In this document: positions 5,048 through 40,411 of the stretch, one piece after another | How positions within the stretch are numbered: position 1 is the stretch's first letter | Layout: each line of letters opens with the position of its first letter | The notes under the pieces: generated by a model | The model's input: the letters and a program-made list of their open reading frames with translations, nothing else | Database searches by the model: none | What the model was told of the DNA's origin: nothing | NCBI GenBank assembly: GCA_947385425.1 | Contig: CANDKY010000007.1 | Location: forward strand, 1 to 61,659 | Direction: 5' to 3' | DNA: 61,659 nt | Origin: an uncultured Lachnospiraceae bacterium | GTDB lineage: Bacteria > Bacillota > Clostridia > Lachnospirales > Lachnospiraceae | Translations under genes and position numbers: made by a program

Positions 5048-5080
5048 AAACATGTTTGGAACAATTCAATATTTCTAATA

Positions 5081-5183
5081 GCAGAGTAGAAATCTGTGCG
5101 TCAAGGGTTCTATGGACAGGGAGTTGCCATAGAAATGAAAAACATTTCAAAATGTTTGCGTTACAGGCTTCGCATCCCGCTGC
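5081..5183 (+). promoter_or_regulatory. Tetrahydrofolate (THF) riboswitch aptamer
   Basis: The segment begins GCAGAGTAGA and ends GCATCCCGCTGC, matching the conserved start (GGAGAGUAGA) and end (GCAUCCGCUCC) of the folT-type THF riboswitch. GCAG/CTGC close the P1 stem. Internal arms TTCTATGG/CCATAGAA and AAACATT/AATGTTT form the other helices, with the conserved GCGT-AAG and GAA segments in place. It lies directly ahead of a FolT-type transporter gene. Confidence 0.88.
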
Positions 5184-5202
5184 TGCATATAGGTTGTTTA
5201 GG

Positions 5203-37437: not shown

Positions 37438-38841
37438 CTAAATATGGCGTTTCCGTTTTAATAACCAAAAACAGATAATAAAAAACACAATGCCGTATAC
37501 TGTAGTAATCGGCGTCGCCAGTCCTACCAGCAGCAGCGATGCCTGCGGAAGTCGTGACATAAATATGGAAACAGGGATACGGATGCAAAATGCCGAGGTA
37601 ATCCCCTGCACCATAACAGGAATGCTATTCCCGCTCCCGTTAAAGTAACCGATACTGCTGAACAAAATGCATGTCAGGATGCATTCTGCGGAAAACCCCT
37701 TCAGGTAATCCGCGCTCTGCGCAATTACTTCCGCATCCTTTGTAAATAGGGATGAAAGATAGGAGCCTCCGAAGAATCCGCCGAAGAAAATTAATACACC
37801 GACCGTACAGCCGGCGGCCATTGCTGTAAGAAATCCGCTCCATGCCCGTTTTTCCTTCCCGGCGCCGATATTCTGCGCTACAAAGGCAGATACACTCTGC
37901 ATCACGGATGAAGGCACCAGCATAATGAAGGACACTATTTTTTGTGCCACGCCATATCCGGCCGATGGCATAAGCCCCATTTGATTGATAATGGAATTAA
38001 TGACCAGGAATGAGATCTGCACCATGGTTTCCTGCAGCGCGATCGGTATGCCGACATTCAGAATCTTTTTCAGTTCCAATGGATATATCCGGCATTGCTG
38101 TCTGGAAAACAAAACCGGCATTTTCTGCCTGCGTATTACTCCGACGGAAACAATCACAGAAACCATCTGTGCCAGCACCGTAGCCAGGGCTGCGCCTGCC
38201 ACATCCATGTGGAACGCTCCCACAAACAGTAAATCACATACGATATTGACCATGCAGGCTATGCCTACAAACAAAAACGGAAGGTTTGCATTCCCTACCC
38301 CGCGCAGTACGCCGCTGATTACGTTGTAAGCAATGATAACCAGTATTCCGCCGGAACATATGCGGATATAGGTTACCGCCTTTTCCACGGATGCCTCCGG
38401 CACCTGCAGCATTGTCACGATATTGCCCGCCAGCAATTCCAACAGGACAGTCAAAGCTATCCCTGACACGGCAAACAACAGGATCGTCGTGCCGACCGCA
38501 TCCCCCGCCTCCTTTGGTTTCTTCTCGCCGATGTGCTGCCCAATGACTACTGTGGAACCCATTGCCAGGCTTGTAATGACAAAAGTTACCATTTGCATAA
38601 ACGCGCTTCCTGTCCCGACGGCGGAGATGCTGGACGCATCCCCGAATTGTCCGACTACGAGCAAGTCCACCGCCCCGTATGCTGCCTGCAGCACCAGGGC
38701 GCCGAGTACAGGAAGGGCAAACCGTATCAGGGAACTGAATATCGGGCCGTCCGTGAAAGAATTTTCCTGGCTGTTATCCATACTATCTATGTTTTGCGCT
38801 GCGCTTTGCGTATTTTTCTTTTTTTCCTCCCTGCTTTTCAT
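37438..38841 (-). CDS. MATE family efflux transporter
   Basis: A 467-residue membrane antiporter with twelve predicted helices after a polar 30-residue N-terminus. The two repeat halves show PVLGALVLQAAYGAVDLLVVG (N half) and GIPIALQETMVQISFLVI (C half), typical of the NorM/DinF-like MATE group that exports cationic drugs using H+ or Na+. It lies 116 bases downstream of marR on the same strand and is likely repressed by it. The start is taken at the first ATG; an alternative at residue 21 is possible. Confidence 0.9.
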   Translation of the reverse strand: MKSREEKKKNTQSAAQNIDSMDNSQENSFTDGPIFSSLIRFALPVLGALVLQAAYGAVDLLVVGQFGDASSISAVGTGSAFMQMVTFVITSLAMGSTVVIGQHIGEKKPKEAGDAVGTTILLFAVSGIALTVLLELLAGNIVTMLQVPEASVEKAVTYIRICSGGILVIIAYNVISGVLRGVGNANLPFLFVGIACMVNIVCDLLFVGAFHMDVAGAALATVLAQMVSVIVSVGVIRRQKMPVLFSRQQCRIYPLELKKILNVGIPIALQETMVQISFLVINSIINQMGLMPSAGYGVAQKIVSFIMLVPSSVMQSVSAFVAQNIGAGKEKRAWSGFLTAMAAGCTVGVLIFFGGFFGGSYLSSLFTKDAEVIAQSADYLKGFSAECILTCILFSSIGYFNGSGNSIPVMVQGITSAFCIRIPVSIFMSRLPQASLLLVGLATPITTVYGIVFFIICFWLLKRKRHI

Positions 38842-38957
38842 AATTTATCCGGCATCCTTTCTTTATCATAATTTTACTTTTTTACTGCTGTTCCGGCGCT
38901 GCCGTATCTGTTGTGTCCGGCAATTGCTGTTTAATAATAAGCGCGTGATTCCAACCT

Positions 38958-39401
38958 TTAACCATTCCTGCGCCCGGGCATGGTTTGCTGCAGCTTCTCT
39001 ATGACATTTACGGTTTCCTGTACCTGTTCATCCGTGATTTCCTGTAGTGAGGCCACCCAGTCCCTGTGGAAATCAAATACGTATTTTTTTACGCATTTCT
39101 CGCCTTCCGGTGTCAGATACAATAAAGCGATCCTTTTATCCCTGCTGTCGGTTTTTTTCTCCAGCATGCCAAAGTTTTCCAGTTCGCATATCAGCTTTGT
39201 AACGCTTGGAGCCGTAATATTCAATCTGCTGCTCACATCGCAGACCCTGCATATTTCCTGCCGCTGTCTTATTTCATAAACGGCTTCCAGCACATGGATT
39301 TGCCGCGGTTTCATTCCCTTTGGCAATTCCGGCAGTGTTTCCGTCACGCGCTTTGCCGTGAAACAAACATCCAGCAGTTGCTTTAATCCCTTTCTTGTCA
39401 C
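38958..39401 (-). CDS. MarR family transcriptional regulator
   Basis: A 147-residue winged-helix repressor. It is read from GTG 39401 with GGAGGG five bases upstream; a longer frame to 39476 would run through the promoter and operator. The winged-helix core includes VCDVSSRLNITAPSVTKLI and the wing DSRDKRIALLYLTPEG. It lies upstream of a MATE pump gene in the same direction, the common drug-sensing arrangement. A 36-bp perfect palindrome overlaps its -10 box, indicating autorepression. The effector is unknown. Confidence 0.9.
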   Translation of the reverse strand: MTRKGLKQLLDVCFTAKRVTETLPELPKGMKPRQIHVLEAVYEIRQRQEICRVCDVSSRLNITAPSVTKLICELENFGMLEKKTDSRDKRIALLYLTPEGEKCVKKYVFDFHRDWVASLQEITDEQVQETVNVIEKLQQTMPGRRNG

Positions 39402-39424
39402 GGTGTCCCTCCTGAATATTTCTA

Positions 39425-39483
39425 TATACTTACTATTAGTAATTACTAATAGTAAGTATATCGGGGAAAAGAACATTTGTCAA
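39425..39483 (-). promoter_or_regulatory. marR promoter and 36-bp palindromic operator
   Basis: On the minus strand, TTGACA (39483-39478) and TATACT (39460-39455) are exactly 17 bases apart, a near-consensus promoter. Positions 39425-39460 form a perfect palindrome centred on AATT with half-site TATACTTACTATTAGT, covering the -10 and start point. MarR binding there would block its own and the MATE gene's transcription. Confidence 0.88.
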
Positions 39484-39628: not shown

Positions 39629-40066
39629 ATGGACAAGGTTGCAAAGTCTGATATAATAAAGGCATCAAGCGTAAAAGAGGGTGTACAGGTGCATCTGATT
39701 GGGAAGATAAACAGGGAAATTTACAAGTGTATAACCGAAGATATTGTTACGGATGAAGTGATCATTACGGATAATCAAATACGGCACATTAAAGATAGGC
39801 ATCCGAATGATTATGAGAGATTTTCAGAATATTTTAGTAAAATTATTGAGGAGCCAGATTATATTTTAGAGGCGAATAAGCCTAACACAGTATTTGTATT
39901 AAAATCTGTCGAAGACCAAGGGGCTAATTTTCAGTTGATTTTAAGGTTAAAAACCTCAGAAGATCCTGAAAATTATAAGAATTCTATTATTACATTTCTT
40001 AAGATTGACCAGAAGAAATGGGAGAAGTATTTACGCAACAAGAAAATCCTTTACAGGCGGGAATAA
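39629..40066 (+). CDS. PBECR-type nuclease domain protein
   Basis: A 145-residue protein whose C-terminal part (about 48-145) matches the PBECR group (phage Barnase-EndoU-ColicinE5/D-RelE-like nucleases). Visible motifs: IRHIKDRHPNDYERF, IIEEPDYILEANKPNT, FQLILRLKTS and SIITFLKI, ending in NKKILYRRE. Such domains occur in phage polyvalent proteins and toxins and probably cut RNA. No immunity or antitoxin gene adjoins it. Its codon use is AT-rich compared with the flanks, and the ribosome binding site is poor, pointing to transfer from a phage. A broken Prp gene follows at 40289. Confidence 0.75.
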   Translation: MDKVAKSDIIKASSVKEGVQVHLIGKINREIYKCITEDIVTDEVIITDNQIRHIKDRHPNDYERFSEYFSKIIEEPDYILEANKPNTVFVLKSVEDQGANFQLILRLKTSEDPENYKNSIITFLKIDQKKWEKYLRNKKILYRRE

Positions 40067-40089
40067 AATTATTATAATAAAACTATGAT

Positions 40090-40213
40090 ATATAGGGGGA
40101 ATACTTGTGGTGGTAAACTTTCGTGTCAACCACGCGCCGCCGGTACTGACAGGGGAAACCCGAGAGATGCAGGAGAATGGCACGCCTGCCAAGTGTTCCC
40201 TCTATATTTTTTT
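40090..40213 (+). ncRNA. Unnamed structured RNA with 18-bp closing stem and U-tail
   Basis: Positions 40090-40107 pair with 40190-40207 over 18 uninterrupted base pairs (two G-U), and a run of seven T (40207-40213) follows. The 82-base interior can form GTGGT/ACCAC (around 40107-40132), GGG-GAAA-CCC-type (around 40152-40161) and GCAGG/CCTGC (around 40169-40189) hairpins. It has no ORF. I do not recognise it as a known riboswitch, ribozyme or sRNA. It lies between the PBECR gene and a Prp remnant. It may be a small RNA with its own terminator or an attenuator. Confidence 0.6.
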
Positions 40214-40288
40214 CTTATCGCATAGCTGGCCACTTAGTATTTGCTGGGTGGTATTTTTATGTCCATTTCCGGGAGGTGAGATATAGTT

Positions 40289-40411
40289 ATGGTTTTAATA
40301 ACGCTCAATAAGATACACGTATCCGGCCACGCAGACGCGGCTTCACGGAACCCTGATATCGTCTGCAGCGCGGTTTCTGCCATTACTCTTACAACTTATA
40401 AGGAGGCTTAA
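40289..40411 (+). pseudogene. Truncated ribosomal-processing cysteine protease Prp remnant
   Basis: A 40-codon frame with GGGAGGTGAG upstream carries both Prp catalytic motifs: the His in VSGHADAA and the Cys in PDIVCSAVSAI. Prp (YsxB) cleaves the N-terminus of ribosomal protein L27; phages carry copies to process head proteins. Normal length is about 105-110 residues. From about 40385 the similarity continues in another frame (LLQLIRRLKEIAC) before a stop, so the gene is broken by an indel. Not being beside rplU/rpmA, it is likely phage-derived. Confidence 0.75.

Follow-up and report, generated by a model that had tools for sequence, protein, structure and literature searches.

A skipping-rope RNA beside a PBECR2 nuclease gene

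The window, by which we mean the whole stretch of 61,659 nucleotides analyzed here (contig CANDKY010000007.1 of an uncultured Lachnospiraceae bacterium), contains a predicted nuclease gene that is followed on the same strand by a structured RNA and by the remnant of a Prp protease gene. The features of this locus are listed below.

39630..39657, + strand: predicted promoter of the nuclease gene (TGGACA, 16-nt spacer, TATAAT; 11/12), a consensus match only, promoter-like sites in the stretch numbering 4 against 2.8 expected in shuffles
39629..40066, + strand: ORF of a predicted RNase of the PBECR2 family, 145 aa as listed
40050..40078, + strand: RNA promoter (-35 TTTACA at 40050-40055, 17-nt spacer, -10 TATAAT at 40073-40078; 11/12 match)
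40085..40213, + strand: expected skipping-rope transcript including the U7 tail, with ends predicted from the promoter and terminator
40090..40107, + strand: closing stem (18 bp), 5' strand, from the fold; 10 bp beyond the model
40100..40197, + strand: RF02924 skipping-rope core, 50.5 bits
40110..40133, + strand: hairpin 1 (stem 40110-40114 / 40129-40133), from the homologue alignment
40122..40128, + strand: kissing strand CGTGTCA in the hairpin 1 loop, pairing with 40178-40184, from covariation
40169..40189, + strand: hairpin 3 (stem 40169-40173 / 40185-40189), with kissing strand TGGCACG at 40178-40184
40190..40207, + strand: closing stem, 3' strand, from the fold; 10 bp beyond the model
40207-40213, + strand: T7 tract, from the sequence
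40229..40252, + strand: second terminator-like hairpin with a T tract, a consensus match only (1 found, 0.8 expected)
40291..40410, + strand: Prp protease gene remnant (PF04327, 37.5 bits), a prophage remnant neighbor outside the module

The nuclease matched PBECR2 (PF18810) at 58.6 bits against a curated cut-off of 27.1, and both neighbors that the initial annotation had given the RNA, a PBECR nuclease gene and a Prp remnant, are borne out by these matches. We infer that the solo nuclease starts at the GTG at 39689, which is preceded by AAAAGAGGGTG. At five other loci (L017, L187, L209, L283, and L286), too, a Prp-like stretch occurs no more than about 1.1 kb away from the RNA. In the window, a MATE-type efflux ORF and a MarR-like regulator ORF (37438-39476, named by eye) adjoin the prophage remnant, and a THF riboswitch aptamer lies at 5080-5184 (RF01831, 79.5 bits).

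PBECR domains, among them the PBECR2 and PBECR3 families, have been described as predicted RNases that occur alone or as fusions with MuF and portal proteins, with mRNA or CRISPR-RNA as proposed targets; the part of that account covered here names no RNA partner (PMC5512222). The active site outlined in the same source, a helix histidine together with a C-terminal serine or threonine, is found in the window nuclease as H53, within model helix 48-57, and S119. Both residues were invariant in 51 sequences and are probably catalytic. The window nuclease is a solo ORF with no fused MuF or minor capsid domain, and such a fusion was found in six homologues (L017, L167, L180, L191, L068, and L283).

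A sequence-profile search of solved structures with the nuclease gave no credible match (best E 0.29), and Foldseek gave none at E <= 0.001. Toxin entries topped the VIA-align list for the nuclease model at Z < 8, a ranking that suggests a toxin-like fold. PADLOC and NCBIfam returned no family for the window nuclease; in these searches, AbiC was weakly matched (E 0.0037) by one PBECR3 protein. The annotation 'spbA protein' is attached to five Streptococcus prophage copies.

The RNA was identified as the Rfam skipping-rope family RF02924 (50.5 bits, gathering score 36.7, E 4.4e-9). The initial annotation had been unable to name a class for it, and this match rules out a new or unknown one. The motif probably originates from Weinberg et al. 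2017. Skipping-rope motifs appear among the ncRNAs in phage fragments in a phage-host prediction study (PMC8501573), and no function or partner for the RNA was found in the literature searched, a limited collection of partial texts. Our own covariance model, R1, which was built from 30 RNAs, some of them out of loci also counted below, scored the window RNA at 63.3 bits, with the window sequence among the model sequences.

The folding energy of the window RNA was -48.6 kcal/mol, compared to a shuffle mean of -35.75 (z -3.4), and none of 200 shuffles was as good. Both the uninterrupted 18-bp closing stem and the U7 tail that had been read from the letters are present. The stem comprises 8 model pairs and 10 more, and it covaried at 6 of 8 pairs in a 23-sequence alignment; the homologue search that had been recommended yielded relatives with compensatory changes in this stem around a fixed core. 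Three inner hairpins had also been proposed: homologues back hairpins 1 and 3 as well as a short stem in the middle, most of the pairs of these elements being invariant, but a 7-bp kissing interaction had been overlooked. The middle arm is longer in the window RNA than in the family (98 nt vs 80 model positions).

As had been noted, the window holds no second copy of the RNA (next-best match to our model 15.6 bits, E 0.057), but there is one elsewhere in the same genome (G000:C43), likewise 3' of a PBECR2 gene. The single window copy and the linkage to a gene rule out a MITE or transposon end, in agreement with the first reading. In another genome, hairpin 3 of one RNA (L112, G418:C11:9502-9590), whose neighbor is a truncated nuclease, contains an internal 10-nt duplication that is missing from L088, the second copy in that genome.

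Linkage of the RNA to PBECR2/3 nucleases

Among 30 RNA loci, many had a PBECR-like frame of 120-150 aa ending a few tens of bases 5' of the RNA, and these frames corresponded to Pfam PBECR2 and PBECR3. In protein-first searches, whose sets overlap (for example, L183 with G029:C74 and L241 with G480:C2) and contain near-duplicates, a skipping-rope RNA was present at 16 of the 17 loci over the PBECR2/3 cut-off in 145 relatives, with G136 as the exception, and at 16 of 22 further loci over the cut-off in a phylum sample of 398 genomes, a count that includes one RNA 0.2 bits below the Rfam cut-off (G173) and one detected by our own model alone (G480). The six RNA-less loci in the phylum sample were PBECR3 domains, five of them within frames of 693-2356 aa (polyvalent proteins) and the sixth 170 nt from a contig end.

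In protein scans, the RNA lay within 300 nt downstream at 78 of 80 PBECR2 genome loci (the best 80 of 295 relatives) and on 46 of 48 viral contigs, a set that includes five loci of another set as well as near-duplicates. The four exceptions were two contig ends, L071, where the RNA is found 2.3 kb on, and L235, a 3'-truncated nuclease that is the only PBECR2 genome locus with DNA but without the RNA among the best 80 of 295 relatives. L071 (3055-5800) carries the end of the nuclease gene in two places, complete within a head fusion and once more 2.1 kb further along, immediately before the RNA; the arrangement looks like the product of a segment insertion or of an exchange of toxin tails.

Annotated phages carried the RNA in six of seven records, five of the six RNAs sharing score and length; the seventh record, Javan254, ends at the nuclease stop. 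On plasmids, all 22 nuclease records contained it, including Bacillus subtilis pTA1060 and 7-kb Fusobacterium plasmids, although these records are not all independent, seven being from Fusobacterium, four from Bacillus, three (near-identical) from Enterococcus/Streptococcus, two from Priestia, and two Macrococcus-like, and the count takes one place per record, a second place in three records being left out. On several plasmids, the gene immediately 5' of the nuclease encodes a protein of roughly 300 aa that is annotated as hypothetical (L295 515-1432, L298 265-1167, and L304 211-1092).

The linkage of the skipping-rope RNA to PBECR2/3 nucleases, both solo and head-fused, is thus established beyond reasonable doubt. 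Because the RNA is almost always found beside one kind of phage or plasmid nuclease gene, it is probably an antidote to the nuclease. An RNA antitoxin had been one of the options raised at the outset, and the near-obligate linkage supports it well; a general phage regulatory RNA, another of them, is unlikely given that the link is alike in phages, plasmids, and chromosomes. The position of the RNA after head genes at fused loci could be taken to indicate a packaging, head, or general regulatory RNA that has nothing to do with the nuclease. However, the link is equally strong where the pair occurs on small plasmids or behind lysis genes at the ends of prophages, and we regard such a role as very improbable.

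Promoter and orientation of the RNA

In genomes, 32-64 nt (median 34) separated the protein match from the RNA; on viral contigs the distance was 32-83 nt (median 35). A promoter with at least 10 of 12 consensus bases was found in 113 of 115 distinct upstream segments, compared to 3.8% of base-shuffled segments. The spacer was 17 nt in 114 of the 115 segments, and the -35 hexamer was TTTACA in 105, by position within the last nuclease codons at most loci, as in the window. Transcription of the window RNA would be expected to start near 40085. In five plasmids (pTA1060, three from Bacillus velezensis, and one from Planococcus), the RNA lies on the opposite strand and converges with the nuclease gene, and it is also convergent at both G418 loci.

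Because the RNA has its own promoter and a downstream or convergent position, it is best interpreted as an independent transcript that acts in trans rather than as a leader or attenuator. The same layout rules out an attenuator or riboswitch for Prp or the nuclease and disposes of the riboswitch-like attenuator that the initial annotation had considered.

An RNA that adjoins the nuclease gene, and converges with it in five plasmids, might also be a classical type I antitoxin that base-pairs with the nuclease mRNA. The complementarity to the toxin mRNA that marks this type was not found: in the nuclease gene plus 150 nt upstream, counting perfect ungapped Watson-Crick stretches only, the longest complement averaged 7.24 nt, compared to 7.21 nt for mismatched partners (112 loci). 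The RNA is, moreover, mostly on the same strand as the gene and strongly structured. With no excess complementarity to the nuclease gene, type I antisense pairing is disfavored, and we consider it extremely unlikely.

A hypervariable kissing loop

The loop of hairpin 1 pairs with that of hairpin 3, over 7 bp in the window (40122-40128 with 40178-40184). At least five contiguous pairs (G-U allowed) were present in 125 of the 128 unique RNAs from protein-found loci, and these pairs were made from 32 different words. The mean kissing score was 15.7, compared to 10.7 (sd 0.25; maximum 11.4 of 500) after loops were exchanged between RNAs in a permutation that preserves loop-length classes, not relatedness. 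In an alignment of 23 RNAs chosen for equal loop length, with no other gaps (A8; 21 rows kept from the 33-row alignment A7 and two added), the kissing helix was 100% paired, four of six pairs had changed on both sides, and 99.5% of all cells paired, compared to 27-40% in slid versions. Pairs were not counted on A7, in which the kissing strand was split by a gap.

The RNA therefore has a covarying pseudoknot besides its nested stems. The legend of Figure 3 in the Rfam 14 paper shows a skipping-rope pseudoknot (PMC7779021), and the kissing helix is presumably the one drawn there. The window RNA agrees with RF02924 in scoring over the gathering score, in its conserved core, and in this pseudoknot; the nuclease link, the promoter, and the hypervariability of the kissing loop are added here.

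A compact multi-helix fold could imitate a structured substrate, and the RNA might then be a sponge or decoy, for example, a tRNA or rRNA mimic, whose cleavage by the nuclease sets the nuclease level; BECR domains of conflict systems are described as often cutting tRNA or rRNA (PMC5512222). However, the RNA had no tRNA-like match in Rfam, even at a lax threshold, and a decoy seems to us distinctly unlikely.

Orphan RNAs, broken nucleases, and arrays

We also examined 62 loci starting from the RNA (of 32 RNA matches in one set, G028:C17:19461 was left out as a tandem neighbor). A nuclease frame lay within 1.5 kb at 34 of them and none at 28, the latter including four with one flank shorter than 1.5 kb (L008, L012, L102, and L104) and G514, where a nuclease match below both cut-offs lies 1.9 kb away. 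At least 7 of the 34 paired loci had a truncated or interrupted nuclease, and a B. velezensis plasmid carries an intact RNA beside a frameshifted nuclease. Solo nucleases over the cut-off that lack the RNA were nearly absent (G136); three weaker matches below the cut-off were also without it. The occurrence of the RNA without the nuclease, but hardly of the reverse, is expected of an antidote and its poison and less so of a cofactor.

A ribonucleoprotein, too, could account for near-obligate linkage, a stable fold, and a position just 3' of the nuclease; in that case the nuclease would be an RNA-directed RNase that needs the RNA as cofactor or guide, and the RNA would not be its inhibitor. Nevertheless, a cofactor does not explain why RNAs over the Rfam cut-off survive beside broken or missing nucleases, and no variable guide-like end was seen, the variable loops pairing inside the RNA. 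RelE and CdiA-CT, in addition, are active without RNA. We regard a cofactor or guide as unlikely.

For the antidote reading, the condition of the orphan RNAs also matters. They had a mean of 3.7 extra closing-stem pairs, compared to 0.7 in shifted controls, with 4 of the 28 having none, and a strong promoter was kept by 7 of 28 orphan RNAs, compared to 29 of 34 paired ones. Because only a quarter have a good promoter, some orphans may be dead copies, which speaks against taking the asymmetry as a sign of an antidote. Some orphan RNAs lie directly beside conflict genes, namely a ParE toxin (gap 35 nt), a PIN-domain protein (2-nt overlap), nucleotidyltransferases, and Csm6 (L021 831-1465, L154 736-1502, L091, L098, and L028). 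These placements may be due to chance in island-rich DNA, or the RNAs may serve other toxins.

Nuclease similarity correlated with the similarity of the first RNA (115 pairs, Mantel rho 0.33; maximum 0.16 in 500 permutations), a correlation that could be obtained from shared descent alone. More than one RNA was present in the stretch at 15 of 128 loci. In 9 of the 10 arrays compared, the RNAs that accompany the most closely related nucleases resembled the proximal RNA more than the distal one; in the tenth, L189, they did not (0.74 vs 0.75). The resemblance of these arrays to immunity-gene arrays is only suggestive.

Proposed function and relation to known systems

Judging from sequence comparison, we think it probable that the two genes form a two-component module in which an RNA antitoxin neutralizes a PBECR2/3 nuclease. 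The protein, PBECR2 in the window and PBECR3 elsewhere, would be a small BECR-fold RNase harmful to the cell. The skipping-rope RNA, transcribed from its own promoter, would fold into the kissing-loop pseudoknot, bind the nuclease, and block it, as RNA antitoxins of type III toxin-antitoxin systems do. Plasmid-borne and solo pairs may act as a maintenance (addiction) module. Where the nuclease forms the C-terminus of a MuF protein or minor capsid protein 2, the toxin could enter the next host with the phage DNA, and the RNA would shield the producing cell and lysogens. The window copy would be a nuclease-RNA module left in a prophage remnant.

Type III systems (ToxIN, CptIN, and TenpIN) are likewise described as combining a small RNase with a pseudoknotted RNA (PMC12373285). 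In contrast, the RNA studied here is downstream or convergent, has its own promoter, and is mostly single copy, and the toxin family is, by Pfam, a different one. Since the upstream, tandemly repeated, and co-transcribed antitoxin RNA that defines type III is absent, we do not file the pair under that type, yet it may work like one.

The closest demonstrated precedent is AbiF/RCd22 of Clostridioides difficile, in which an RNA with the abiF motif (RF03085) beside a prophage protein, AbiF, has been shown to neutralize that protein by binding it directly (PMC12373285). That RNA, however, is upstream and co-transcribed, and its protein is Abi_2-like, not BECR. The MuF polymorphic toxins of temperate phages, as presented in PMC5576092, resemble the head-fused loci in carrying a toxin domain at the C-terminus of a head protein with immunity encoded downstream, but the immunity proposed there is a small protein, whereas here it would be an RNA. 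It is conceivable, and we put this forward tentatively, that the RNA confers immunity to a virion-delivered head-protein RNase, that the hypervariable kissing loop sets which toxin variant is neutralized, and that tandem or orphan RNAs widen or keep immunity.

If this is true, the Rfam skipping-rope family would find its explanation as immunity by RNA within a polymorphic-toxin system. On pTA1060 and other small plasmids, it would also form a lineage of protein-RNA toxin-antitoxin pairs in its own right. A widespread phage nuclease family gains an RNA partner, and the RNA family, for which we had located neither function nor partner, gains a partner and a proposed function that can be tested. 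The proposal predicts a self-contained module on small natural plasmids, for example, pTA1060 of Bacillus subtilis. It may explain some plasmid stability loci as well as the ability of lysogens to withstand virion-borne RNases when they have no gene for an immunity protein.
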